In this document: piece after piece, positions 7,801 to 26,635 of the stretch
Numbering within the stretch: the first letter of the stretch is position 1
How the letters are laid out: every line of letters starts with the position of its first letter
From: Cryobacterium sp. MP_M3
GTDB taxonomy: Bacteria; Actinomycetota; Actinomycetes; Actinomycetales; Microbacteriaceae
Length of the DNA stretch: 64,000 nt
Direction of reading: 5' to 3'
NCBI RefSeq assembly: GCF_015752155.1
Contig: NZ_JADOVI010000007.1
Location: forward strand, 124,001-188,000
The notes under the pieces: generated by a model
The model's database searches: none
Seen by the model: the letters and a program-made list of their open reading frames with translations, nothing else
Told to the model about the DNA's origin: nothing
Program-made: the position numbers and the translations under genes

Positions 7801-8598
7801 TCAGCCGGAGAGCGCCCACATGGCGACGGCACTGGCCGCGGCCACATTGAGCGAGTCGATGCCGTGCTTCATGGGGATCTGCACGATGCTGTCGGATGCC
7901 GCGAGCGCGTCGCCGGTGAGCCCCTCACCCTCCGCGCCGAGCAGCAGGGCCAGCCGCTCGTGCTCGGCGCCGCGGAAGTCACGCAGGCTCACGGCATCCT
8001 CGGCCAGCGCGAGCGCTGCCACGTGGAAACCGTGCCGGTCCAGCACCGCGCGGGTGCTCGGCCAGTCGCCGACGCGGGTCCACGGCACCTGCAACACGGT
8101 GCCCATCGACACCCGGATCGCCCGGCGGTAGAACGGGTCGGAGCAGCGCGGCGTGACCAGGATCGCATCCGCGCCGATCGCGCCGGCCGAGCGGAAGATC
8201 GCGCCGACATTGGTGGGGTCCGACACGTTCTCGAGGATGACGATCCGGCGGGCGCCGGCGAGCAGGACGTCGGGGGCCGGCAATTCGGGCCGGTGCATCG
8301 CCGCGATCACTCCGCGGTGCAGGATGTACCCGGTCAGCTCCGCCAGCAACTCGCCCGGGCCGACGAAAACGGGCACGTCGTCGCCGACGAGCGCGCGTGC
8401 CTCGTCGACGGTGTTGCCGAGCGCCAGCACCGACCGCGGCCGGTGCCCGGCCCGCAGCGCACGCTCCAGAACTAATGCCGATTCGGCTATATACAGGCCG
8501 TGCTCGGTGCCGCGCGCCTTCTTCAGGGCGACGTCGGTCAGATGGGCGTAGTCGACCAGCCTCGGATCGCTGAGGTCGCTGATCTCGATGACGGGCAT
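7801..8598 (-). CDS. TrmH/SpoU-family RNA 2'-O-methyltransferase
   Basis: SPOUT-class RNA methyltransferase (265 aa). It has an N-terminal substrate-binding region to ~residue 100. The SpoU motifs follow: motif 1 NVSDPTNVGAIFRSA, motif 2 LLLGAEGEGL, and motif 3 IPMKHGIDSLNVAAASAVAM with the knot-forming SLNV. It probably methylates a ribose in tRNA or 23S rRNA with S-adenosylmethionine. The exact target is unknown. ATG 8598 is preferred over an upstream TTG because TAGACT lies six bases before it, fitting a leaderless message. It stands alone. Confidence 0.88.
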   Translation of the reverse strand: MPVIEISDLSDPRLVDYAHLTDVALKKARGTEHGLYIAESALVLERALRAGHRPRSVLALGNTVDEARALVGDDVPVFVGPGELLAELTGYILHRGVIAAMHRPELPAPDVLLAGARRIVILENVSDPTNVGAIFRSAGAIGADAILVTPRCSDPFYRRAIRVSMGTVLQVPWTRVGDWPSTRAVLDRHGFHVAALALAEDAVSLRDFRGAEHERLALLLGAEGEGLTGDALAASDSIVQIPMKHGIDSLNVAAASAVAMWALSG

Positions 8599-8604
8599 CC
8601 GCAA

Positions 8605-8610
8605 AGTCTA
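8605..8610 (-). promoter_or_regulatory. -10 box for leaderless TrmH-like gene
   Basis: TAGACT, then TTGCGG, then ATG (8598). The six-base spacing and the lack of a Shine-Dalgarno sequence suggest transcription starting at the start codon. Confidence 0.5.
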
Positions 8611-8644
8611 GCCGGGGGCCGCCGGCCCAGGCCCGACCACCCGA

Positions 8645-8747
8645 CCGTGCACAACTCCTGCACATTCTGCCGGGCCCGACCGGCATCCGCAGGATTCCGC
8701 GGAACGCCCCCGCGGCCGGGAGTGAATTGCAGGAGTTATGCACACGG
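8645..8747. repeat. long imperfect inverted repeat
   Basis: Left arm CCGTGCACAACTCCTGCA and right arm (reverse complement) CCGTGTGCATAACTCCTGCA surround ~65 bases of GC-rich sequence with a smaller internal hairpin. It fills most of the 204-base gap between the RNA methyltransferase and gabD. It has no coding signal. Confidence 0.7.
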
Positions 8748-8802
8748 CGTCGGGCACACCCCGGTCGGGACTGGGCGCGACAGCGGGATCCGGCCGGCCG
8801 TC

Positions 8803-10278
8803 CTAGTCGAGGAAGGGGTCGGGCAGGAGCGTGTACTTGGTGGAGAGGTACTCGTGGATGCCCTCGAGCCCGCCCTCGCGGCCGAGGCCGGACTGCTTGA
8901 CCCCGCCGAACGGCGCCGCCGCGTTGGAGAGCACGCCGACGTTCAGGCCCATCATGCCCGTGTGCAGGCGTTCGATCATCCGGTGCCCGCGGGCCAGGTC
9001 CTGGGTGAAGACATAGCCGACCAGCCCGTACTCAGTGTCGTTGGCGAGCCGCACGGCCTCGTCCTCGTCGCCGAACGTGGAGATCGCCAGCACCGGCCCG
9101 AAGATCTCTTCACGCAGGATGTCGCTGCCCGGCGCGACGCCCGAGAGCACCGTGGGCTGGTAGAAGGTTCCGTGCCCGGCGATGGCCGACCCGCCGGTCA
9201 GCAGTGTCGCCCCCTTGCCGAGCGCGTCCTGCACGAGAGTGTCGGCCTTGTCGATGGCGGCCTGGTTGATCAGCGGGCCGATGGTGACGCCCTCCTCGGT
9301 GCCGCGGCCGACCGTGAAGTCGGCGACCGTCTCGGTGACCCGGCGCGCGAATTCGTCGGCGATGGACTCGTGCACGATGAACCGGTTCGCCGCGGTGCAG
9401 GCCTGGCCCACGTTGCGGAACTTCGCGGCGATCGCGCCGGCGACGGCCTTGTCGAGGTCGGCGTCTTCGAAGACGACGAACGGGGCGTTGCCGCCGAGCT
9501 CCATCGAGGTGCGGAGCACGCCCTGCGCGGACTGCTGGATCAGCTTCTGGCCGACCGGGGTCGACCCGGTGAAGCTGAGCTTGCGCAGGCGCGGGTCGGC
9601 GATGATCGGCCCCGACACCGCGGCCGACGTCGAGGTCGTGATCACGTTGACGACGCCGGCCGGCAGGCCGACCTCCTCGAGCAGACGCACGAAGAACAGG
9701 GTGGTCAGCGGGGTCAGCTCGGCCGGCTTGATCACGACGGTGCAGCCCGCGGCGAGCGCCGGGGCGATCTTTCGGGTCGCCATCGCGAGCGGGAAGTTCC
9801 ACGGGGTGATCAGGAAGCACGGTCCGACCGGGTGCTGGGAGACGATCATCCGCCCGGTGCCCTCCGGGTTGGTGCCGTAGCGGCCGGTGACGCGCACGGC
9901 CTCCTCGCTGAACCAGCGCAGGAACTCGCCGCCGTAGGCCACCTCGCCGTACGCTTCGGCGAGCGGCTTGCCCATCTCGATGGTCATCAGCAGGGCGAAC
10001 TCCTGCTTGCGCTCCTGCAGCAGGTCGAAGGCCCGGCGCAGGATCTCCCCGCGAACCCGGGGCGGGGTTGCCGCCCAGCCGGCCTGCGCCGCGACGGCCG
10101 CGTCGAGGGCGGCCGCGCCATCCGCGACGCCCGCGTCGGCGATGGTCTTGATTACCTTGCCGGTGGCCGGGTCGTGCACGGTCAGGGTGGCGCCATCGGC
10201 GGCCGGCACCCATTTGCCGTTGATGAACAGTTCGTTGGGTACGTGCTGGAGCAGTTCGGCTTCGGTGACATGCGTCAT
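8803..10278 (-). CDS. gabD: NAD(P)-dependent succinate-semialdehyde dehydrogenase
   Basis: Aldehyde dehydrogenase (491 aa) oxidising succinic semialdehyde to succinate. The catalytic residues are E260 (MELGGNAP) and C294 (GQACTAANR). The cofactor region contains PWNFPLAMATRK and IKPAELTP, as in GabD proteins. The ATG at 10278 is chosen because GGGAG stands 8 bases before it. An upstream in-frame ATG at 10290 has none. Succinic semialdehyde is the end product of homoprotocatechuate meta-cleavage. This gene therefore plausibly completes the nearby catabolic cluster, although 4-aminobutyrate use is equally possible. Confidence 0.88.
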   Translation of the reverse strand: MTHVTEAELLQHVPNELFINGKWVPAADGATLTVHDPATGKVIKTIADAGVADGAAALDAAVAAQAGWAATPPRVRGEILRRAFDLLQERKQEFALLMTIEMGKPLAEAYGEVAYGGEFLRWFSEEAVRVTGRYGTNPEGTGRMIVSQHPVGPCFLITPWNFPLAMATRKIAPALAAGCTVVIKPAELTPLTTLFFVRLLEEVGLPAGVVNVITTSTSAAVSGPIIADPRLRKLSFTGSTPVGQKLIQQSAQGVLRTSMELGGNAPFVVFEDADLDKAVAGAIAAKFRNVGQACTAANRFIVHESIADEFARRVTETVADFTVGRGTEEGVTIGPLINQAAIDKADTLVQDALGKGATLLTGGSAIAGHGTFYQPTVLSGVAPGSDILREEIFGPVLAISTFGDEDEAVRLANDTEYGLVGYVFTQDLARGHRMIERLHTGMMGLNVGVLSNAAAPFGGVKQSGLGREGGLEGIHEYLSTKYTLLPDPFLD

Positions 10279-16821: not shown

Positions 16822-18357
16822 ATGACAACGACCGACACCACCGCGACCACCGGCTCCAGCACGGCCGGCCACTTCGTCCCCGAGAACCTGCCGACCCGCA
16901 TCCAGCACTACATCGGCGGCCACTTCGTCGACAGCGTCTCCGGCAAGACCTTCGACGTGCTCGACCCGGTCTCCAACCAGACCTACGCCACCGCCGCCGC
17001 CGGCCAGCAGGAGGACATCGACCTGGCCGTGGCCGCCGCCACGGAGGCCTTCGAGAACGGGCCGTGGCCGGGCATGAAGCCGCGCGAGCGCTCCCGCATC
17101 CTGAACCGGATCGCCGACGCGATCGAAGCGCAGGATGCCCGCCTCGCCGAACTGGAAACCTTCGACACCGGTCTGCCGATCACCCAGGCCCTCGGCCAGG
17201 CAAACCGGGCGGCCGAGAACTTCCGCTTCTTCGCCGACCTGATCGTGGCGCAGGCCGACGACACCTACAAGGTGCCCGGCAGCCAGATCAACTACGTCAA
17301 CCGCAAGCCGGTCGGCGTCGCCGGGCTGATCACCCCGTGGAACACCCCGTTCATGCTGGAGAGCTGGAAGCTCGCCCCGGCGCTGGCCTCCGGCTGCACC
17401 GTCGTGCTCAAGCCGGCCGAGTTCACGCCGCTCTCGGCCAGCCTGTGGGCCGGGATCTTCTCCGCCGCCGGGCTGCCCGACGGGGTCTTCAACCTGGTCA
17501 ACGGCATCGGCGAGGAGGCCGGCGACGCGCTGGTCAAGCATCCGGGCGTCCCCCTCATCTCGTTCACCGGCGAGACCACGACCGGCCAGACCATCTACCG
17601 CAACTGCGCCGCCAACCTCAAGGGCATGTCGATGGAACTCGGCGGCAAGTCCCCCGCCATCGTCTTCGCCGACGCCGACCTCGACGCCGCGATCGACTCG
17701 ACCCTGTTCGGCGTCTTCTCGCTCAACGGCGAACGCTGCACCGCCGGCAGCCGGATCCTGGTCGAACGCACCGTCTACGACGACTTCTGCGCCCGCTACG
17801 CCGCCCGCGCCCGGAACATCGTCGTCGGCGACCCGCACGACCCGAAGACCGAGGTCGGCGCGCTCGTTCACCCCGAGCACTACGCCAAGGTGATGAGCTA
17901 CGTCGAGATCGGCAAGACCGAGGGCCGCCTGCTCGCCGGCGGCGGCCGCCCGGCGCACCTGGCCGAGGGCAATTACGTGTCGCCGACCGTGTTCGCGGAT
18001 GTCCCGCCCACGGCCCGCATCTTCCAGGAGGAGATCTTCGGCCCGGTGGTGTCGATCACCCCGTTCGACACCGATGAGGAGGCCCTGGCGCTGGCCAACG
18101 GGGTGAAATACGGCCTCGCCGCGTACCTCTGGACCGGCAACCTCACCCGGGCGCACACCTTCGCCCAGGCGATCGAGGCCGGCATGGTCTGGCTCAACTC
18201 GCACAATGTGCGCGACCTCCGCACCCCGTTCGGCGGGGTCAAGGCCTCGGGACTGGGCCACGAGGGCGGCTACCGTTCGATCGATTTCTACACCGACCAG
18301 CAGGCCGTGCACATCACCCTCGGTGCCGTGCACACCGCCCGCTTCGGCGCCGCCTGA
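16822..18357 (+). CDS. hpaE: 5-carboxymethyl-2-hydroxymuconate-semialdehyde dehydrogenase
   Basis: Aldehyde dehydrogenase (511 aa) that should oxidise the ring-cleavage product of homoprotocatechuate to 5-carboxymethyl-2-hydroxymuconate using NAD. MELGGKSP supplies the catalytic Glu and NGERCTAGSR the nucleophilic Cys, and PWNTPFMLESWK is typical of the HpaE group. The ATG has GGAG 8 bases upstream and begins two bases after the aldolase stop codon. A Thr/Ala-rich N-terminal ~20 residues precede the conserved domain. Neighbouring hpaD makes the assignment stronger than sequence alone. Confidence 0.88.
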   Translation: MTTTDTTATTGSSTAGHFVPENLPTRIQHYIGGHFVDSVSGKTFDVLDPVSNQTYATAAAGQQEDIDLAVAAATEAFENGPWPGMKPRERSRILNRIADAIEAQDARLAELETFDTGLPITQALGQANRAAENFRFFADLIVAQADDTYKVPGSQINYVNRKPVGVAGLITPWNTPFMLESWKLAPALASGCTVVLKPAEFTPLSASLWAGIFSAAGLPDGVFNLVNGIGEEAGDALVKHPGVPLISFTGETTTGQTIYRNCAANLKGMSMELGGKSPAIVFADADLDAAIDSTLFGVFSLNGERCTAGSRILVERTVYDDFCARYAARARNIVVGDPHDPKTEVGALVHPEHYAKVMSYVEIGKTEGRLLAGGGRPAHLAEGNYVSPTVFADVPPTARIFQEEIFGPVVSITPFDTDEEALALANGVKYGLAAYLWTGNLTRAHTFAQAIEAGMVWLNSHNVRDLRTPFGGVKASGLGHEGGYRSIDFYTDQQAVHITLGAVHTARFGAA

Positions 18358-18360
18358 CCT

Positions 18361-18424
18361 GGATCTCGACAGGCTCGATCACCGGCGGCTGAGCACGTCA
18401 CCGGTGGTCGAGCCCGTCGAGACC
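18361..18424. repeat. TCGACAGGCTCGA-type intergenic inverted repeat
   Basis: Left arm GGATCTCGACAGGCTCGATC and, in reverse complement, right arm GGTCTCGACGGGCTCGACCA. Both continue into an ACCGG block, with a 15-base centre. This repeat class is widespread between genes in Microbacteriaceae. Here it sits inside an operon, between hpaE and hpaD. Confidence 0.85.
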
Positions 18425-18455
18425 ACAACCACTGACACTCAATGAGGAGGACCCC

Positions 18456-19547
18456 ATGACCACCACCCCCATGACCACCACCCCCATCCCCACCCCCGCG
18501 GCCACCCCGCCCGACATCCTGCGCTGCGCCTACATGGACCTCGTCGTCACCGACCTGGCCGCCTCCCGCGAGTTCTACGTGGACATCCTCGGCCTCGTCG
18601 TGACGGAGGAGAACGACACCGAGATCTACCTGCGCAGCTTCGAGGAATTCATCCACCACAACCTGGTGCTGCGCCAGGGACCGGTCGCAGCGGTCTCCGC
18701 GTTCGCGTTCCGGGTGCGCTCCCCCCTCGACGTGGACCTCGCCGAGGCGTACTACCGCGAGCTCGGCTGCCGCACCGAGCGCCGCGCGAACGGCTTCGTC
18801 ACGGGGATCGGCGACTCCGTGCGCGTCGAAGACCCGCTCGGCTTCCCCTACGAGTTCTTCTTCGACACCGAGCACGTGGAACGCCTCGCCTGGCGCTACG
18901 ACCTGCAGGGTCCGGGCGCGCTCGTGCGCCTGGACCACTTCAACCAGGTCACCCCCGACGTCGGCCTCGGCCGCGGCTACCTGGAGGACCTCGGCTTCCG
19001 GGTCACCGAGGACATCCAGGACGCGGACGGCGTCACCTACGCGGCCTGGCTGCGCCGCAAGGACACCGTGCACGACACCGCCCTGACCGGCGGCAACGGC
19101 CCGCGGATGCACCACATCGCCTTCTCCACGCACGAGAAGCACAACATCATCTACATCTGCGACAAGCTCGGCGCGCTGCGCAAGTCCGACCTGATCGAGC
19201 GCGGCCCGGGCCGGCACGGCGTGTCCAACGCGTTCTACCTCTACCTGCGCGACCCCGACGGCCACCGGGTCGAGATCTACACCCAGGACTACTACACCGG
19301 CGACCCCGACAACCCGGTCGTCACCTGGGACGTGCACGACAACCAGCGCCGCGACTGGTGGGGCAACCCGGTGGTGCCGAGCTGGTACACGGATGCCTCC
19401 CTCGTGCTCGACCTCGACGGCACCCCCCAGCCCGTGATCGAACGCACCCAGTCGAGCGAGATGGCCGTGACCGTCGGCGCCGACGGCTTCTCCTACACCC
19501 GCAAGGGCGAGGAGATGCCCGAATACAAGCTCGGCCACCAGCTCTAA
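18456..19547 (+). CDS. hpaD: homoprotocatechuate (3,4-dihydroxyphenylacetate) 2,3-dioxygenase
   Basis: Type I extradiol dioxygenase (363 aa) opening the ring of 3,4-dihydroxyphenylacetate next to the hydroxyls. Two vicinal-oxygen-chelate modules are seen. The metal ligands H161 (RLDHFNQVTPD), H220 (MHHIAFS) and E273 (HRVEIYTQ) fall exactly six positions after H155, H214 and E267 of the Brevibacterium fuscum enzyme. Fe(II) or Mn(II) cannot be told apart. A perfect GAGGAGG lies six bases before the ATG. The first five codons (MTTTP) are duplicated, giving a second possible start at 18471. It is the last gene of the operon, followed by a terminator. Confidence 0.95.
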   Translation: MTTTPMTTTPIPTPAATPPDILRCAYMDLVVTDLAASREFYVDILGLVVTEENDTEIYLRSFEEFIHHNLVLRQGPVAAVSAFAFRVRSPLDVDLAEAYYRELGCRTERRANGFVTGIGDSVRVEDPLGFPYEFFFDTEHVERLAWRYDLQGPGALVRLDHFNQVTPDVGLGRGYLEDLGFRVTEDIQDADGVTYAAWLRRKDTVHDTALTGGNGPRMHHIAFSTHEKHNIIYICDKLGALRKSDLIERGPGRHGVSNAFYLYLRDPDGHRVEIYTQDYYTGDPDNPVVTWDVHDNQRRDWWGNPVVPSWYTDASLVLDLDGTPQPVIERTQSSEMAVTVGADGFSYTRKGEEMPEYKLGHQL

Positions 19548-19573
19548 CCGCCCGGGCGGCCCCGCTTTCCGTT

Positions 19574-19609
19574 CCCGTTCCGGTCGAGGGCACTCCCGAC
19601 CGGAACGGG
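19574..19609. terminator. terminator after hpaD
   Basis: Perfect 13-base arms CCCGTTCCGGTCG / CGACCGGAACGGG with a 10-base loop. It lies between convergent hpaD and the anti-sigma gene and can serve both. Confidence 0.8.
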
Positions 19610-19617
19610 GGCTCAGG

Positions 19618-20493
19618 TCAGGTGGCGTGCAGTTCGCCGCGCACGATGGAGTCGCCGGAGTGGGCCGGGTCGCCGTTGTCCGGTTCGGCGGACACGTCGA
19701 CGAGCGGGTACTGGGCCAGGTCGAGCCCGTCGGGGATCGAGAACCGGCCGGTGGCGCCGTCGAGCAGCCCGATGCTGACCAGGCCGGAGGCATCCGCCTT
19801 GATCAGCCACACCTCGCGCAGGGGCGCGCTGCCCGTCGCCCCGGTGAGGTCGACCACCACCTCCCGGTGGCCGTCGGCGGCCTTCTCCACGTAGGCGGTG
19901 CCGCCGGCCTTCCAGCCGGGGAACGGGTCCAGTTTCGCTTCGGCGATCTTCGCTTCGACGACGGGGGGCGCGGTGTCCCGCCGCAGCGACTCCCACCAGA
20001 TCCCGCCGCCGAGGCCGCCGACCAGGCCGACGATCCCGGCCGCGACGGTCAGCGGCAGCCAGAACCGGGCGCGGCGCGACCGACCGCGGCCGTCGATCCG
20101 GGCGACCGGCGCGAGTCCGACCGGAGGCGCCGGCTCCACGGGAGCCGGACCGGCAGCACCGCCTGGCGCGAGCACCGCGGCATCCGTCACCGGCGCCGTG
20201 CTTGCCGGCCCCGTGCTTGCCGGCCCCGCACTCGCCGGAAAGTCGGAACGCCGCGGAGTGCCCGCGACCGCGTCGGACAGCCCGAGGGCGGAGTGGATGC
20301 GGCCCCAGACGGCGTCGCCCGGCTCGATGAGTTCCACGTCGCGCGCCGCGCGGCCGACCGCGATGGTGTGCTGCAGGGAGATCAGTTCGAGCGAGCACTC
20401 CGGGCATTCGGCCAGGTGGAGGTGCTCCAGTTCGGTGAGGTCGAGCTCCGCCATCGCTATGAGCGCGAGATCGTCCCGGTCAATGTGTGTCAT
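19618..20493 (-). CDS. rskA: RskA-family anti-sigma factor
   Basis: Single-pass membrane anti-sigma factor (291 aa). The N-terminal zinc-binding anti-sigma domain has H26-x3-C30-x2-C33 (HLAECPEC). A Pro/Ala-rich cytoplasmic linker follows, then a membrane helix at ~120-140 (LPLTVAAGIVGLVGG). The extracytoplasmic RskA domain ends LPVDVSAEPDNGDPAHSG-like (here LVDVSAEPDNGDPAHSGDSI). It overlaps the sigma-factor gene by 14 bases, as sigK-rskA pairs do. It should sequester the sigma factor until regulated intramembrane proteolysis releases it. Confidence 0.92.
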   Translation of the reverse strand: MTHIDRDDLALIAMAELDLTELEHLHLAECPECSLELISLQHTIAVGRAARDVELIEPGDAVWGRIHSALGLSDAVAGTPRRSDFPASAGPASTGPASTAPVTDAAVLAPGGAAGPAPVEPAPPVGLAPVARIDGRGRSRRARFWLPLTVAAGIVGLVGGLGGGIWWESLRRDTAPPVVEAKIAEAKLDPFPGWKAGGTAYVEKAADGHREVVVDLTGATGSAPLREVWLIKADASGLVSIGLLDGATGRFSIPDGLDLAQYPLVDVSAEPDNGDPAHSGDSIVRGELHAT

Positions 20494-21136
20494 CGTTCGC
20501 CTCCAATCTGGTGCGCAACCTGGTCAGGCTTCGTCTGATGTGACTCTTCACGGTGCCGAGGGGCAATCCGAGGCTATCGGCGATCTGCGCGTGCGTCAGG
20601 TCATCGTAGAAGGCCAGCTGCATCACACGCTGCGGCACCGGTTCGAGGCGTTGCAACTCCTCGCTGATCAGCAGCCGGTCGGCGACGTCGGCCGATTCGT
20701 CGGGGTGGCTGAACTGGAGTTCCCCCATCACGGCCGCCTCGATCCGGCGGCGGCGGGAACGGGCTTCATGCGCGTCGGCCACCGCGTGCCGGGTGATGCC
20801 GACGAGCCAGGCCGGAAGCCGGGCGCGGGAAGGGTCGAAGCCGGTCCGGCCGTTCCAGGCCGAGATGAAGACCTTCTGGGTCACGTCCTCCGCCTCGCCA
20901 TGGTCGCCGAGCGAGCGCATAGCGATGGTGTGCACGAGCGCCGCCCAGCGGGCGTACGCCTCGGCGAGCGCACGTTCGTCCCCAGCGCGGAAGGCGGTGG
21001 CCAGCCGTGCGTGGTCGTCCGCATCGGTGATTGCGCTCACCACACTGGGGTGCCTCCCGGTCGAATGCCGCGGCGACTGGTCGTACACCTCAGGCCTCCC
21101 CGCGAAGGACGCCTCGACCACCGTCGACCTCAGCAT
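20480..21136 (-). CDS. sigK: ECF RNA polymerase sigma factor, SigK-like
   Basis: Extracytoplasmic-function sigma factor (218 aa). Region 2 is at ~45-115 (ALAEAYARWAALVHTIAMRS, DVTQKVFISAW). Region 4 is near the C-terminus, with the recognition helix in LPLGTVKSHIRRSLTRLR. ATG 21136 is preferred, with GAGAAGG seven bases upstream. A GTG two codons earlier would crowd it. The partner anti-sigma overlaps its 3' end. The upstream sortase and DUF4397 genes and the two matching candidate promoters (22767, 23734) suggest that this factor drives a small cell-surface regulon. Confidence 0.9.
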   Translation of the reverse strand: MLRSTVVEASFAGRPEVYDQSPRHSTGRHPSVVSAITDADDHARLATAFRAGDERALAEAYARWAALVHTIAMRSLGDHGEAEDVTQKVFISAWNGRTGFDPSRARLPAWLVGITRHAVADAHEARSRRRRIEAAVMGELQFSHPDESADVADRLLISEELQRLEPVPQRVMQLAFYDDLTHAQIADSLGLPLGTVKSHIRRSLTRLRTRLEANDDTH

Positions 21137-21169
21137 AGCCACACCTTCTCACTGTGGGATGGATCGTCA

Positions 21170-21835
21170 TCATGGGAGCGGATCCGCCGAGACGATCACG
21201 TTGGAAAGGTAGCGCTTCGCCTCGTAGTCGAATTCGCCGCCGCAGGTCACGAGTGTCAGCCGGGAGGCACCCGACCGGTCGAAGACACTGGCCCACGGGA
21301 CATCCGGTTTGAGGATCGATTGCACCCCGGTGACCGAGTAGCCCCGCTCCGACCCGTCGCTGAGCGTCAGCACGACCCTTGTTCCGGCACTCGCCGAGGC
21401 GAGCCGGGCGAACGGGCCGATGTCGTAGACGAGCGAGTCGACATGGGCGGCGATCACGGTCGCCCCGGCCGGGCTGGCCGGAGACGGGCCGAACCGGTAC
21501 CAGGCGGCCACGGCGGGGTTCTTCGGCAGTTCCATGACGTTCTCCGCGGTCTGACCGACCGCCTCGACCGCCATGTCGATGCCCAGGGCCTCCACCCGGA
21601 TCCGCACGGGGGCGAGCGAGGCCGGGACCTGGTTGGCGCTCAGGGCCGCGCTCACCGTCGGCACTGTCACCTCGGGGGCCGGCGCGGGGGCCGGCTGGGG
21701 CGCCGGAATCACGGATGCCGGCGCCGGCGCGGCCGTCGCCGGTGGGGATGCCGCTGGGGCCTGAGTCCCGGAGCATCCGCCGAGCAGAACGAGAGCCACA
21801 GCGAGCATCCCGATTGCGCCCACTGTGGCCCTCAT
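21170..21835 (-). CDS. class F-like sortase with lipoprotein-type signal
   Basis: Transpeptidase (221 aa) expected to attach surface proteins. The sortase core has the catalytic His in VIAAHVDS, Cys in LTLVTCGGEFDY and Arg in EAKRYLSNVIV. The TLxTC motif and small size fit class F/E actinobacterial sortases. The N-terminus has a hydrophobic stretch ending LLGGCSG, so the protein may be lipid-anchored, unlike most sortases, which keep a membrane helix. A Pro/Ala-rich linker (residues ~24-60) follows. It starts 13 bases after the DUF4397 gene upstream and is cotranscribed with it. Confidence 0.88.
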   Translation of the reverse strand: MRATVGAIGMLAVALVLLGGCSGTQAPAASPPATAAPAPASVIPAPQPAPAPAPEVTVPTVSAALSANQVPASLAPVRIRVEALGIDMAVEAVGQTAENVMELPKNPAVAAWYRFGPSPASPAGATVIAAHVDSLVYDIGPFARLASASAGTRVVLTLSDGSERGYSVTGVQSILKPDVPWASVFDRSGASRLTLVTCGGEFDYEAKRYLSNVIVSADPLP

Positions 21836-21848
21836 CTTGCGCCCCCCG

Positions 21849-22685
21849 CTAGCGTCGCGCGGCGGCGCGACGCAGTCCCAGAACCGACGCCGTGCCGAGC
21901 GCGAGCAGCAGGGCGGCGAATCCGCCGAGCCACAGCCCGGTAGTGTCAGCGGGCTTGTTCGTGGCGACCAGGCCGGCCTCCCCGGCGGGGATGCTGCCGG
22001 GGTTCGAGTGCAGTCCGGCGATCGTCTGCACGCCGAGGGCCAGGTTCTTGTCGGTCAGGCTGCCCCACGCGTAGACGATCGTGTTCGTGCCCTCAGCGAC
22101 ATTGACGTCCGCCGGTCCGATCACCGGGGCCGTCGTGCCCGTTGCGGCGACCGCCGCCGAGATGGTGCCGGACGGGAGGTTCAGCACCGATTCCTTCGGG
22201 TTGACCAGGTTGGTGATGGCTGCGGCGCCGTTGGCGAGCACGTCGACCGCGAGTGCGGCCGCCACGTGCCGCACGGTCAGCCGACCCTGGCCGGCCTCCA
22301 GCTTGCCGATGTCGTTGGTGAAGAGCGTCGCGGTGGGCTTGCCGGCGGCGTCGAGGTGGGCGACGGCGGTGTAGTCCTTGCCCGCTTCGAGAGGGAGGTC
22401 GACCGGGCCGATCGCCGGCTTGCTCGCGTCGGCCGCGTCCGAGGCCGTGATCGCCACCGTGTAGGTGCCCGCCGGCAGGTCGAGCGGACCGGCCAGGTCG
22501 CCCGGCTTGAAGTTGTCGAGCGTGAGCTTGTTGTTCACGTACACGTCGACGGTCAGGCCGGGAACGCCGTGGAAGACGGACAGTTTGGCGACGGGGTCGG
22601 CGGCCTGCGCCGGCGCGAGGCCGGCGAGGGCGACGAAGGCGCCGAGCGAGACCGCCGTCAAGCCGATCGTAAGGGACTTGTGCAT
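21849..22685 (-). CDS. secreted DUF4397 protein with C-terminal membrane anchor
   Basis: Surface protein (278 aa). It has a signal peptide with cleavage near APAQAA, then two DUF4397-type beta modules (LSVFHGVPGLTVDVYVNNKL and a related second repeat starting LTVRHVAAALAVDVLANG). The C-terminus is a 20-residue hydrophobic helix plus RRAAARR. The layout is that of a sortase substrate, but the sequence before the helix is NKPADTTG rather than LPxTG or LAxTG. AGGAGG lies five bases before ATG 22685. It precedes the sortase gene and has its own candidate ECF promoter. The function of DUF4397 is unknown. Confidence 0.85.
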   Translation of the reverse strand: MHKSLTIGLTAVSLGAFVALAGLAPAQAADPVAKLSVFHGVPGLTVDVYVNNKLTLDNFKPGDLAGPLDLPAGTYTVAITASDAADASKPAIGPVDLPLEAGKDYTAVAHLDAAGKPTATLFTNDIGKLEAGQGRLTVRHVAAALAVDVLANGAAAITNLVNPKESVLNLPSGTISAAVAATGTTAPVIGPADVNVAEGTNTIVYAWGSLTDKNLALGVQTIAGLHSNPGSIPAGEAGLVATNKPADTTGLWLGGFAALLLALGTASVLGLRRAAARR

Positions 22686-22713
22686 CATTTCCTCCTGGTG
22701 CTGTCTGTGGTTG

Positions 22714-22727
22714 GTCACCGCGGTGAC
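22714..22727. promoter_or_regulatory. perfect palindrome in the 5' leader of the DUF4397-sortase operon
   Basis: GTCACCGCGGTGAC is a 14-base perfect palindrome located between the candidate ECF promoter and the ribosome binding site. It may be an operator or an RNA hairpin in the leader. Confidence 0.4.
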
Positions 22728-22766
22728 TGTTCCCCGCGGTGTGTGCCGGGGCACTCTTGCCAACTA

Positions 22767-22794
22767 CTTCCGCCGCAGGCCCCTGATCGGATGC
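22767..22794 (-). promoter_or_regulatory. candidate ECF (SigK-type) promoter of the DUF4397-sortase operon
   Basis: On the minus strand GCATCC (22794-22789), 16 bases, then CGGAAG (22772-22767). The -35 resembles the CCATCC element known for mycobacterial SigK. The same GCATCC-N16-YGGAA pattern precedes the second DUF4397 gene. Confidence 0.6.
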
Positions 22795-22826
22795 ACTCGA
22801 ACGTGATTTCTTTCGCGCGGACGCAC

Positions 22827-22864
22827 GGACACGGCGGCGCGGACACGGCGGCGCGGACACGGCG
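22827..22864. repeat. 14-base tandem repeat, 2.7 copies
   Basis: GGACACGGCGGCGC occurs twice, followed by GGACACGGCG. It lies between the terminator of one DUF4397 gene and the promoter of the next and does not code for anything recognisable. Confidence 0.85.
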
Positions 22865-22902
22865 AGGGCCGCACGTCAGCTGTCGCTGCGCGTGCGGCCC
22901 TC
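22864..22902 (-). terminator. terminator after the second DUF4397 gene
   Basis: Perfect arms GAGGGCCGCACG / CGTGCGGCCCTC with a 15-base loop, 57 bases past the stop codon at 22959. It separates the two DUF4397 transcription units. Confidence 0.75.
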
Positions 22903-22958
22903 GAGGTGCGGACGAAGCCCCGTCGATCAATTCGACCGGGAGTCGTCAGTGGCGATCC

Positions 22959-23681
22959 TTACTTGTGGTGGTGTCCGCCCCCGGTGAGGTCGACCGTCTG
23001 CACGGCGAACGCGAGGTTGCCGGCAGCCAGGCTGCCCCAGGCGTAGACGATCGTGTTCGTGCGCTTGGCGATCTCGACGTCGGTCGGCCCGATCAGCGGG
23101 TCGGTCGTTCCGGTCGCGGCCACCACGGCGGAGATTGTGCCGACCGGCAGGGTCAGCTCTTCCTCGTCGGGGTTGGTCAGGTCGGTCACCGCGGCGACAT
23201 CGTCCGCGAGCACGTCCACGGAGGGTGCGGCGGCGATGTGCCGCACGGTGAGGCGCCCGTTGCCCTTGCCGACCTTGTCCGGGTTGTTGGTGAACAGGGT
23301 GGCGCTGGGGTCACCCGCTTCGGTGAGGTGCGCTGCGACCGTGTAGTTGTCGCCTGCCTCCAGCGCCAGGTCGACCGGACCGATCGCCGGGTTGCTGGCG
23401 TCCTTCGCATCGGCGGCCGTGATGGCAACCGAGTAGGTCCCGGCGTCGAGGGTGAGGGTGTCGGAGAACGAGCCCGGCTTGAAGTTGTCCAGGGTGAGCT
23501 TGCCGTCGACGTAGACATCAACGGTCAGGCCCGGAACCCCGTGGAAGACGGTGAGTTCCGCGGTGCCTCCGTCGGAGTGATGCCCGTCGCCACCGTGGTA
23601 TTCGCCGGCGCTGGCCGGCAGGATTCCTGCGAGAGCGACGAGTAGGCCGGCTGCGGTCCCAATTGCGATGGTCCTGTGCAT
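22959..23681 (-). CDS. secreted DUF4397 protein, His-rich ends, no anchor
   Basis: Paralogue (240 aa) of the neighbouring DUF4397 protein, close to identical over HGVPGLTVDVYV and LDNFKPG. It has a signal peptide (cleavage near PASAG) and two DUF4397 modules. It lacks a C-terminal helix and ends GGGHHHK instead. The mature N-terminus is also His-rich (EYHGGDGHHSDGG), which may bind metal. It should be secreted or only loosely bound. AGGAGGTAACT directly precedes the ATG. It is transcribed alone from a promoter with GCATCC-N16-TGGAAT. Confidence 0.85.
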   Translation of the reverse strand: MHRTIAIGTAAGLLVALAGILPASAGEYHGGDGHHSDGGTAELTVFHGVPGLTVDVYVDGKLTLDNFKPGSFSDTLTLDAGTYSVAITAADAKDASNPAIGPVDLALEAGDNYTVAAHLTEAGDPSATLFTNNPDKVGKGNGRLTVRHIAAAPSVDVLADDVAAVTDLTNPDEEELTLPVGTISAVVAATGTTDPLIGPTDVEIAKRTNTIVYAWGSLAAGNLAFAVQTVDLTGGGHHHK

Positions 23682-23733
23682 AGTTACCTCCTGCATTTCG
23701 TTGGACGGGAGGCCGCGTTGCCTCCCGCTACCA

Positions 23734-23761
23734 ATTCCAGCAAAAGGGTGGTTTTGGATGC
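23734..23761 (-). promoter_or_regulatory. candidate ECF (SigK-type) promoter of the second DUF4397 gene
   Basis: On the minus strand GCATCC (23761-23756), 16 bases, then TGGAAT (23739-23734). It agrees with the element at 22767-22794 in both boxes and in spacing, and resembles the mycobacterial SigK pattern CCATCC / CCGAAT. Confidence 0.65.
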
Positions 23762-23781
23762 AACCCTTCAAGAAAAGTTTG

Positions 23782-23803
23782 ACAAAACCCCCCGAATAGG
23801 GGG
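23782..23803 (-). terminator. Rho-independent terminator after the alpha/beta hydrolase
   Basis: On the minus strand CCCCC-TATTC-GGGGG followed by GTTTTGT, starting five bases beyond the hydrolase stop. It is a compact hairpin with U-tract. Confidence 0.75.
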
Positions 23804-23808
23804 AAGCG

Positions 23809-24573
23809 TCAGGAAAGGAAGTCCAGGGCCGCCTGCTTGAACTCGCGGGAGGTGAGGGAATTCACGTGATCGCGCCCGGGCAGCTCCCGGTAGGCGGAGC
23901 CGCGGGCGCGGGCCAGCTCGGCCACTCCCTCCGGGATCGGGTCGGCACCGCCCGCCACATACAGCACGGGGATGCCCGGCGGCAAGTCGAGTTCCGCCCC
24001 GGCGAATCCCTCCACGCAGGCCAGCAGTGCCGCCAGGTCTCCTCCCGCGGCGACCGCGGCGGCGAGCACGGGCCCGAGCACGGACGAGACCACCGGATCG
24101 GCCGGGGCCTGGCCGGCCAGCAGCCCGGCCAGCGTCGCCGGGCCGACGGACTCGAACAGTTCGACCGGCCCCGCGCCGCCGAGCACCAGGCGGCTCACCC
24201 GTTCCGGTGCCAGCCGGGCGAGCGCAGCCGCGACCCGGGACCCCATCGAATAGGCCACCACGTCGACGTGGTCAAGGCCGAGCGCGTCGAGCACGACGAC
24301 GAGGTCGGCCGCGAGCTGCCGGGGAGCGTAGTCGGCGGCCCGGTGCGGTTTGTCGCTTCGACCGTGGCCGCGGAGGTCGGGCGCGACCACGCCACGTCCG
24401 GCTTCCTCGAGGAAGCGCACCCAGCCGGTGCCGGTCCAGCTGAGCCTGGCGGTCGACGCGAACCCGTGCACGAGCAGGATCGGGCGGTCCCCCGGCACGA
24501 AGTCATAGGCGATCCGCACGCCGTCGAGGCGCCGCGCGAAGGAGTCCAGCACGGGCGCGGGCCGGGGCCCCAC
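23809..24573 (-). CDS. alpha/beta-fold hydrolase
   Basis: Hydrolase (254 aa) of the epoxide hydrolase/proline-iminopeptidase-like group. The oxyanion region is LLVHGFAST, the nucleophile is Ser in VAYSMGSR (Ala replaces the usual first Gly), the acid lies in AGGADPIPEG and the His in GRDHVNS. The start is a GTG directly after the nicotinamidase stop. It is the last gene of the dacB-pncA-hydrolase unit and runs into a terminator. The substrate is unknown. Confidence 0.82.
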   Translation of the reverse strand: MGPRPAPVLDSFARRLDGVRIAYDFVPGDRPILLVHGFASTARLSWTGTGWVRFLEEAGRGVVAPDLRGHGRSDKPHRAADYAPRQLAADLVVVLDALGLDHVDVVAYSMGSRVAAALARLAPERVSRLVLGGAGPVELFESVGPATLAGLLAGQAPADPVVSSVLGPVLAAAVAAGGDLAALLACVEGFAGAELDLPPGIPVLYVAGGADPIPEGVAELARARGSAYRELPGRDHVNSLTSREFKQAALDFLS

Positions 24574-25164
24574 CTAGGCGACCACGTCTGAGGCGGCCAG
24601 GACGGCCCCCGCGTATGCCAGTTCGGCGAGGGCAGCCTCGCTGGCCTCCGGGTTGACCCCGGCGATCAGGTCGGTGAGCACGCGCAGGTGCTGGCCGTGT
24701 TCGAGGGCGTCGAGCCCGCTCGCCCGCACACAGTGGTCGGTGGCCAGGCCAACGATGTCGACATCCGTCACACCGTTCGTGATCAGCAGTTCGCCGGTTT
24801 TGTCGCCGCCCTCTGAGACGCCGTCGAAGATGGAGTAGCCGACCTCCCCCTGTCCCTTGCGAATGTGGATGGTGTGTTCCGGCAGCGTGAGCGCCGGGTT
24901 GTACTCGGCGCCTGGGGTGCCCGCCACGCAGTGCACCGGCCAGCTCTCGGAGTAGTCGGGTTCGCCGGACAAAGCGAAGTGGCCGCCGTTGTCGCTGTCG
25001 GGGTCGTGCCAGTCCCGGGAGGCGAAGACGCACGCGTAGGCGTTCTGGTGTTGCGCCAGGAGAGCGCTCACCCCGGCGGCAACGGCGGAACCGCCCGCAA
25101 CTTCAAGCGCGCCACCCTCTGTGAAGTCATTCTGGACGTCGATGATGAACAGTGCCCGTGTCAC
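24574..25164 (-). CDS. pncA: nicotinamidase (isochorismatase fold)
   Basis: Enzyme of 196 aa converting nicotinamide to nicotinate for NAD salvage. The catalytic triad is D9 (FIIDVQNDF), Lys in IHIRKGQG and Cys in LATDHCVRAS. The metal site appears as SRDWHDPDSDNGGHF. Start GTG 25164 has GAAGGAG six bases upstream. It is cotranscribed with the PBP4-like gene 28 bases before it and the hydrolase after it. Confidence 0.92.
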   Translation of the reverse strand: MTRALFIIDVQNDFTEGGALEVAGGSAVAAGVSALLAQHQNAYACVFASRDWHDPDSDNGGHFALSGEPDYSESWPVHCVAGTPGAEYNPALTLPEHTIHIRKGQGEVGYSIFDGVSEGGDKTGELLITNGVTDVDIVGLATDHCVRASGLDALEHGQHLRVLTDLIAGVNPEASEAALAELAYAGAVLAASDVVA

Positions 25165-25192
25165 AGGTGGCTCCTTCGCTCGCCGGATGGGA

Positions 25193-26635
25193 TCAGGTGT
25201 TCGACAGGTTGTCACCGCAACGATAGAAACCGGCGGTGAGGGTGTCGATCGCCTGCTTCGCATTATCGCCCACATCCCCGAGCGCGTAAACGGCGAAGGT
25301 GAGCGGCGTGCCGTCCGCTGCGTGGATGACGCCGGCCAGGGTGTAGCCGGTGTCGATCCAACCGGTCTTGGCGAAGACGGAACCGTCCGCGACGGCGTTG
25401 TCCCCCGTGAACCGGTCGCTGTAGGACAGCGACCCGCTGTCGCCGCCGGCGACGGGCAAGCCGTCGAAGATGACGCCGAGGTTGCCCTCCCTGGCGTTGA
25501 TCTTGACGAACAGTTTCGTCAGGTAGGACGGCGGAACGGCGTTGTTGTCGCTCAAGCCGGAGCCGTCGGCGATGAGGATGCCGGCCGTGTCGATGCCGTA
25601 CGGGGCGAGCCCGGCGAGGGTGGATTTCTGCAACGCCCCGAAGGTGCTCCCAGCCCCGGATTTCACCGCGACGAGCCGGGCGAGCATCTCGGCGAGCGCG
25701 TTGTCCGACACGATCAGCGCCTGTTTGATCAGGGTGGACACCGGCTGGGACTGCACCGAGGCGAGTTCTGCGGCGCCCGCCGGTGCCGTGCCGCGGCTGA
25801 CCTCCACATTGCCGCCGAGCGCGTCGGCGAACGCTTGCCCGGCGCGCCCTATCGGGTCGCTACTGCGGGCGGAGGTGCTGCTTCCCGGGTTGTCCCGGTC
25901 TCCGTCGACCTGCAGGGCCGTGATCTCGGGCATGTACCCGTCGCCGAGTTCCTTCCGGTTCCAGCTCGGGTCCCAGCTGGGGTCTCCGAAGGAGGAAGAG
26001 TCGAGCACGAGCCGGGTGATCGGCGGATGCGCCGGGTCGGCCGTCCACGCGGCGATGGTCTTCGCGGCCAGGTCGTCGAGGTGCGCGGCGCCGGTGTACA
26101 CCGATTCTTCGCCGGTCGGGGTGCGGGATAGCGTGAGGTCTCCCCCACCGACCAGCACGACCGTTCCCGCTTCGCTGCCGGCGACCACGGTCGTCGTGGC
26201 CCGGTAGTCGGGGCCGAGCACGCTCAGCGCGGCCGCCGAGGTCAGCACTTTGAGCACGCTCGCGGTGCGGGACGGCGTGTTGCCGCCGCGGTCGAAGAGG
26301 ACTTCGCCGGTGCTGGCGTTGACCACCTGGGCCTGGAAGTTAGCGAGCCGGGGGTCGGCGGCGAGGCCGGCCACCGAGCAGGTGCGGAGACGGCTGGCGG
26401 TGGTGGCGTCGGCCGGGGCGGGCCGGGGCGGCGGGGCCGTCGGGGTGGGGCTGGGGGTGGCGGCCCGGGCACGGAGGGCTGCGGGAGCGCTGGCCGGGAT
26501 GGTCGATGCTCCCGCGACGACGGCCCCGGTGCCGAGGAGGGCGAACAGCGCCGCACCGGCGGTGATCAGCGCCAGCGTGCGGTGCCGGGCGATGAAGGCT
26601 GCGATGCCGGGGCGCGGGGTGTCCTGTTCTTCCAC
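25193..26635 (-). CDS. dacB: D-alanyl-D-alanine carboxypeptidase/endopeptidase (PBP4 type, S13)
   Basis: Peptidoglycan-trimming enzyme (480 aa) acting outside the membrane. After ~20 cytoplasmic residues there is one membrane helix (LALITAGAALFALLGTGAVV) and a Pro/Ala-rich linker. The S13 domain has SxxK as SVLK near residue 135, SxN as SDNALAEML and KTG in VFAKTGWIDTG. Start GTG 26635 is preceded at six bases by TACAGT with no Shine-Dalgarno sequence, so a leaderless message is likely. Confidence 0.9.
   Translation of the reverse strand: MEEQDTPRPGIAAFIARHRTLALITAGAALFALLGTGAVVAGASTIPASAPAALRARAATPSPTPTAPPPRPAPADATTASRLRTCSVAGLAADPRLANFQAQVVNASTGEVLFDRGGNTPSRTASVLKVLTSAAALSVLGPDYRATTTVVAGSEAGTVVLVGGGDLTLSRTPTGEESVYTGAAHLDDLAAKTIAAWTADPAHPPITRLVLDSSSFGDPSWDPSWNRKELGDGYMPEITALQVDGDRDNPGSSTSARSSDPIGRAGQAFADALGGNVEVSRGTAPAGAAELASVQSQPVSTLIKQALIVSDNALAEMLARLVAVKSGAGSTFGALQKSTLAGLAPYGIDTAGILIADGSGLSDNNAVPPSYLTKLFVKINAREGNLGVIFDGLPVAGGDSGSLSYSDRFTGDNAVADGSVFAKTGWIDTGYTLAGVIHAADGTPLTFAVYALGDVGDNAKQAIDTLTAGFYRCGDNLSNT

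Follow-up and report, generated by a model that had tools for sequence, protein, structure and literature searches.

We examined a compact locus in a 64,000-nucleotide stretch of Cryobacterium sp. MP_M3 (contig NZ_JADOVI010000007.1, positions 124,001 to 188,000), hereafter the window. An earlier note on this DNA had described five same-strand genes for two DUF4397 proteins (here D1 and D2), a sortase, an extracytoplasmic function (ECF) sigma factor and an RskA-type anti-sigma factor. All five are found on the minus strand (Table 1) and Pfam agrees with their assignment: DUF4397 is matched at 112.3 and 101.6 bits in the two genes (PF14344, gathering score 30.6), Sortase at 55 bits (cut-off 26.6) and RskA_C at 41.2 bits (cut-off 29.4), and Sigma70_r2 and r4 are both matched in the sigma factor. 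D1 and the sortase gene are 13 nt apart, the sortase and sigma genes 27 nt apart, and the sigma and anti-sigma genes overlap by 14 nt. Given this spacing, D1 to anti-sigma probably form a single operon, which we refer to as the module. D2 lies outside this operon, and a 136-nt stretch located between it and D1 folds into a strong hairpin (z -3.46).

The predicted promoter element

Each DUF4397 gene is preceded by a copy of the element GCATCC-N16-YGGAAK, P1 ahead of D1 and P2 ahead of D2, at the very positions that the earlier note gave, and these are the sole two matches in the window. In 100 dinucleotide shuffles of the window the mean number of matches was 0.06 and none of the 100 held two. 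The whole genome contains seven matches, P1 and P2 included, and one match to the reversed pattern. Extending the search to relatives, we found that 100 of 119 DUF4397 genes carry the fixed pattern in the 250 nt ahead of them, compared to 24 of 2400 random stretches from the same loci. Scores above 12 with a matrix were obtained for 98 of 107 sortase-linked DUF4397 genes and 10 of 12 other DUF4397 genes, compared to 16 of 1800 random stretches, the matrix counts including many sites that built the matrix itself. In nine of the 11 genes under this score GCATCC lies 79-91 nt ahead of the start, and either the second box is altered or the spacer is 17 nt long; the other two are L086, with GCATCC 217 nt ahead of a mis-chosen start, and L077, without GCATCC. 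The view that one promoter class stands ahead of both DUF4397 genes is upheld by these comparisons as a prediction from sequence.

The spacer measures 16 nt in 98 of 101 pattern matches and is variable in sequence. All 96 sites have a purine at position 7 of the element, which the pattern does not constrain, and A is found in 59 sites at position 8 and likewise in 59 at position 9. Nearly all matches with a 16-nt spacer (96 of 98) start 62-109 nt before the chosen start codon; the other two start at 217 and 219 nt, an outlying distance that in at least one case is explained by a wrongly chosen start codon.

A large regulon in the same genome was considered and rejected, the five further whole-genome matches (L215, L223-L226) having nothing convincing downstream by eye. 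In a pattern scan of 45 genomes, matches occur in 41, including those free of the module, and the reversed control also matches many, so that single matches mean little. A recurrent match ending TTCTTCCAGAAG resembled coding sequence by eye and was set aside. Two high-scoring elements in other surroundings were recorded: one (L209, 9354-9381) lies 43 nt before a small frame resembling a winged-helix regulator and adjoining a sigma locus, and the other, found in two genomes of one genus (L218, 5424-5451; L219, 5937-5964), stands upstream of an alpha/beta-hydrolase-like gene at a distance of about 400-500 nt.

The earlier note had seen no matching promoter directly before the sigma gene and judged autoregulation not evident. 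This judgement does not stand: the sigma gene is part of the operon headed by P1, which makes autoregulation likely, and the sigma gene has its own copy of the element in five of six family genomes where it lies apart. The element precedes sigma genes that stand apart from DUF4397 in L208, L209, L212, L231, L232 and L276. Rearranged loci show further arrangements. In genomes G025 and G102 the DUF4397-sortase pair is apart from the sigma-anti-sigma pair and each pair has its own element, while in L210 and L211 the element precedes a DUF4397 gene located after the anti-sigma gene. This gene order is seen in G078 and G141, from the same genus as the window, where the DUF4397 gene has its own element and no sortase gene, and weaker elements stand before the sigma genes; the DUF4397 protein of G078 holds four DUF4397 stretches. 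G002, G086 and G149, three genomes of one genus without DUF4397, have a sigma gene with its own element and an adjoining fasciclin gene.

Table 1. Features of the locus, in window coordinates
Feature	Position	Strand	Basis or remark
Anti-sigma gene, RskA-type, 291 aa	19618..20493	-	PF10099 match; one membrane helix by eye
HxxxCxxC motif (zinc anti-sigma type), anti-sigma residues 26-33	20395..20418	-	Sequence; alignment of relatives
ECF sigma gene, outside the SigK clade, with LitS-like rows	20480..21142	-	Pfam, NCBIfam, trees
Class F-like sortase gene (PF04203), predicted lipoprotein	21170..21835	-	Pfam, NCBIfam, Foldseek, lipobox
Cys21 codon, sortase lipobox LGGC	21773..21775	-	Sequence
DUF4397 gene D1, 278 aa: signal peptide (by eye), DUF4397 region, C-terminal membrane tail	21849..22685	-	
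D1 C-terminal tail: GLVATN, hydrophobic stretch, basic end; proposed sorting signal	21852..21974	-	
Promoter element P1 (predicted), GCATCC-N16-CGGAAG	22767..22794	-	Starts 109 nt ahead of D1
Strong hairpin between D2 and D1, possible D2 terminator	22857..22909	-	
DUF4397 gene D2, 240 aa: signal peptide (by eye), His-rich ends, without membrane tail	22959..23681	-	
Promoter element P2 (predicted), GCATCC-N16-TGGAAT	23734..23761	-	Starts 80 nt ahead of D2

Gene starts and signal peptides were assigned by script or by eye, the starts of D1 (22685) and D2 (23681) being picked by ribosome site and signal peptide. Short tandem CGGACACGGCGGCG repeats lie between D2 and D1 (22826-22864), and an Rfam scan of 18000-25500 returned zero families at the gathering score. 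The flanking genes that were looked at encode an alpha/beta hydrolase and an HpaD-type dioxygenase. Among the matches listed, the closest named relatives of D1 are from Cryobacterium, with up to 95% identity.

C-terminal tails and the adjoining sortase

That the sortase and the DUF4397 proteins belong together, as previously proposed, is supported by comparison. A C-terminal hydrophobic membrane tail was found in 117 of 118 DUF4397 proteins with a sortase gene next to them, and in the sole apparent exception (L076) the script had mis-cut a tail that is actually present. For comparison, 13 of 14 DUF4397 proteins without an adjoining sortase gene are tail-less, the exception being L087. These counts exclude four DUF4397 genes in loci ending within 1.5 kb (L117, L125, L140 and L163), and related genomes are non-independent in them, so that Fisher values calculated from them are overstated. 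The motif G-[LYM]-[VALM]-A-[TSED] occurs in 78 of the 118 sortase-linked tails. Like cell-wall proteins of the LPXTG type, the tails combine a hydrophobic stretch with a basic end, but they do so without LPXTG, which is present in 0 of 118; LAXTG is present in one.

The best NCBIfam match of the sortase is to class F sortases (NF033748) with 102 bits, under the cut-off of 166. Foldseek assigns it a sortase fold: sortases A, C and E are matched with E-values starting at 3e-8, the first of them with a TM-score of 0.46 (by query). A PDB sequence search gave zero matches at E 0.01. The usual class F sortases are anchored by a membrane helix; here, 98 of 117 sortases have a lipobox after the hydrophobic stretch. 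The resemblance to class F extends to the best model match and the fold, and the differences to the score, the lipobox and a substrate tail devoid of LPXTG. His131 and Cys198 are invariant in a 28-row alignment; for the larger set of 117, selected for TCGG, the catalytic Cys is given.

One alternative is that D1 is not anchored by the sortase: its tail would be an ordinary membrane anchor, and the sortase would have other substrates or catalyse another reaction. In favour of this alternative are the virtual absence of LPXTG-like motifs, the class F score below the cut-off and the sortase Arg, which is at no fixed place; in 31 of 117 sequences the 17 residues that follow the catalytic Cys contain no Arg. 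The missing LPXTG and Arg also weigh against the circuit proposed below, as do two further observations: L087 has a tail and no sortase, and among the 14 DUF4397 proteins that lack a sortase, seven are second copies next to a sortase-linked one. Against the alternative stand the co-occurrence of tail and sortase gene and the invariant His and Cys, and we regard it as unlikely. The likely interpretation is that the sortase and its substrate form a dedicated pair with an unusual signal, the chemistry being predicted.

As to L087 itself (Cryobacterium shii, 7941-9840), a tailed D1 with its element is followed directly by the anti-sigma gene, and the sortase and sigma genes are missing, reflecting either a deletion or an assembly fault. 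Seven genomes without the sigma factor (L234-L240) hold another kind of DUF4397 protein near another sortase, and V[QE]TGGG stands near the end of the DUF4397 protein in the six of the seven whose ends were read. D2 is His-rich at its ends, and the second DUF4397 copies of L085, L086, L093, L095 and L096 also end in short His-bearing tails.

A fasciclin fold for DUF4397 was considered and rejected. The predicted D1 model was instead matched to the outer domains of PepT1/PepT2, with E about 4e-6 and a TM-score of 0.47 (by query), and weakly to AlgF (E 0.03-0.05).

Identity of the sigma factor

The sigma factor had been named SigK. In the narrow sense this name fails: the protein reaches 104.4 bits with the SigK model (NCBIfam NF007228), the curated cut-off being 226, and another ECF gene of the same genome (L291) is a true SigK with 276 bits. 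The two belong to different clades. In a careful tree, from which six long rows and ten near-duplicates had been left out, a 100/100 branch splits 76 module-type from seven SigK-type rows; a quick tree had all 99 rows. Of the SigK-type rows, three of the four tested (L291, L292, L294 and L296) were confirmed as SigK, and L295, L298 and L299 were placed without a model test. The redox cysteine pair C133/C183 described for M. tuberculosis SigK (PMC7509140) is unmatched here, as the last 180 residues of the window's sigma factor contain no cysteine.

The mycobacterial SigK-RskA system with MPT70 and MPT83 is alike in combining an ECF sigma factor, an RskA_C anti-sigma factor and a secreted protein, which is a fasciclin protein in some relatives of the module. 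It differs in its sigma clade and in its promoter element, the mycobacterial SigK consensus being of the CCATCC / CCGAAT type. The anti-sigma factors differ as well. An N-terminal HxxxCxxC is present in 29 of 29 aligned module anti-sigma factors, for which zinc binding is predicted from the motif, whereas M. tuberculosis RskA does not rely on such a motif (PMC7406223).

The module sigma factor is apparently closer to LitS-like sigma factors than to SigK. Six rows from one genus, taken for Streptomyces, form a 98/97 subclade within the 100/100 module sigma clade. We infer that these are LitS from their neighbour genes: two of the six adjoin MerR genes with B12-binding domains, one is near a photolyase gene and one near a lycopene cyclase gene. 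Their loci hold the same element. In 18 loci of this genus (198 kb) the matrix gave 25 matches and the reversed matrix 0. Nine of the 25 lie 63-103 nt before genes resembling, by short sequence patterns, epimerase (4), photolyase (2) and lycopene cyclase (3), a further 12 lie before other reading frames and four have no nearby start. In the LitR-LitS system the B12 light sensor LitR controls LitS, whose targets are crt operons (PMC5401885, PMC12705666); the module differs in pairing its sigma factor with an anti-sigma factor in the membrane and with surface proteins. No LitR-type gene is present among the module-flanking genes looked at; no LitR search was made over the rest of the window.

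Both the module sigma factor and SigK probably fall under the broad published group ECF19. M. tuberculosis RskA is placed in anti-sigma group AS19-1, and AS19-1 and AS19-2 are both assigned to ECF19, which they are suggested to have come to bind independently (PMC7406223). The helix 1 consensus of AS19-2, HLDPDQLALLA (PMC7406223), resembles the module anti-sigma factors by eye and by pattern: the window's protein reads HIDRDDLALIA, and 28 of 29 fit a loose pattern. As AS19-2 goes with ECF19, the module sigma factor may well be filed there. The passages of PMC7406223 on AS19-2 name no DUF4397, sortase or promoter. The module sigma factor is, from its sequence, a distinct branch with its own element.

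The presence of a true SigK in the same genome raises the alternative that this protein, or both sigma factors, reads P1 and P2 and that the module sigma factor has other targets. The -35 parts of the two promoter types are alike, and the element of one fasciclin gene (L281) ends CCGAAT, as in the SigK-type element. Around true or presumed SigK genes, however, five of six fasciclin genes have CAATCC or CCATCC together with CCGAAT/C/G (a loose pattern with no chance control, the sigma factor of L300 being only presumed SigK), while GCATCC with CGGAAG accompanies the module sigma gene and recurs in the LitS-like loci. We consider it improbable that SigK, alone or together with the module sigma factor, reads P1 and P2. 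P1 and P2 are called promoters from sequence, and the element might instead be the operator of an unlinked regulator. This is very improbable, given that the two boxes keep a near-fixed spacing although the spacer varies in sequence, and that distant loci sharing the module sigma clade hold the same element.

Distribution, effectors and a possible circuit

The earlier note took the system for a lineage-specific regulon. The four-gene operon is present in several families and is thus not lineage-specific. The order DUF4397-sortase-sigma-anti-sigma occurs in 74 of the best 80 of at least 517 confirmed loci, and four of the remaining six run off the contig. These best 80 are the loci for which names were read, and those with the four-gene order include Cellulomonas, Cellulosimicrobium, Sanguibacter and Georgenia. 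The same order occurs in 28 of 38 sortase loci fetched from a family sample (72 listed outside the window). In this sample of 150 genomes, the sigma gene was found in 40, DUF4397 in 44 and both in 37, so that DUF4397 is present in 37 of 40 sigma-positive compared to seven of 110 sigma-negative genomes, related genomes again being non-independent. At class level the sigma gene was found in 49 of 246 genomes, with the same neighbours in part of the loci read. Both searches scored part of each genome's candidates and the absences among these numbers are lower bounds.

It had further been suggested that DUF4397 proteins stand in the place of fasciclin proteins under this sigma factor. This holds in part. 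The effector beside this sigma factor does alternate in the genomes compared, and in some relatives a fasciclin gene occupies the position of DUF4397. Of 11 fasciclin genes beside a module-type sigma gene, two have the element (L271, L278) and two a variant (L281, L283), 74-89 nt before the start; seven have no good element. Changes between DUF4397 and fasciclin number at least four in the careful tree and six in the quick tree, the latter count taking L271 as DUF4397 and ignoring rows with neither effector; many forks are open.

Taken together, we judge it quite probable that the locus comprises a self-regulating surface-protein operon under a LitS-like, non-SigK ECF sigma factor, with P1 and P2 as its promoters and the sortase attaching D1. 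In this proposal, the RskA-type anti-sigma factor, which spans the membrane and has a zinc-type motif at its N-terminus, would hold the sigma factor until a signal inactivates this anti-sigma factor, possibly by proteolysis in analogy with RskA. The freed sigma factor would direct the RNA polymerase to GCATCC-N16-(C/T)(G/A)GAA(G/T). Transcription from P1 would then yield D1, the sortase, the sigma factor and the anti-sigma factor, providing positive feedback together with its own brake, and transcription from P2 would yield D2. Both DUF4397 proteins would be exported, as their signal peptides (recognized by eye) predict. The membrane-anchored sortase would attach D1 via its C-terminal tail, and D2, having no tail, would be released.

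Some observations weigh against this proposal. At class level the strict element is absent from many gene-bearing loci (L272, L273, L274, L277, L279, L280, L282, L287, L288, L304 and L308). The fasciclin genes with no good element are those of L208, L209, L212, L231, L232, L287 and L307 (the last with a weak score), and the lone sigma gene of G055 (L213) has no element. The control loci, too, hold matrix matches (15 in 372 kb), although a match was the reason for fetching 13 of these 32 loci.

As for the signal, a bacteriorhodopsin-like gene (PF01036) on contig 8 of the same genome has the same element upstream (L216 5364-5391, equal to 134363-134390). Among 30 rhodopsin loci the element is present, with changed spacers, in the four best-matching ones, namely this one and three of the nearest relatives at 89-93% identity, one of them having a variant, and in 0 of the 26 others. 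Only the LitS-like kinship and this element hint at a light or photo-oxidative signal. We tentatively hypothesize, while doubting it ourselves, that actinobacteria have an old pair of sigma factor and promoter (GCATCC-N16-CGGAAG) whose output was rewired repeatedly: to DUF4397 with a lipid-anchored, LPXTG-independent sortase, or to fasciclin; to the carotenoid and photolyase light response of Streptomyces; and, in part of Cryobacterium, to a rhodopsin gene as well. The surface operon may then belong to a light or photo-oxidative response.

These results correct a SigK name that annotation would spread and give the sigma group a promoter element that is readable from genomes, from Microbacteriaceae to the LitS-like loci. 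They also offer a role for DUF4397, for which our literature search found no paper joining it to a sigma factor or a sortase. The co-presence of tail and sortase can serve as a natural test case for a substrate whose signal is unusual. Finally, the surface protein is swapped while the sigma factor, and sometimes also the promoter, is conserved, which clearly exemplifies how a regulon can exchange its effectors.

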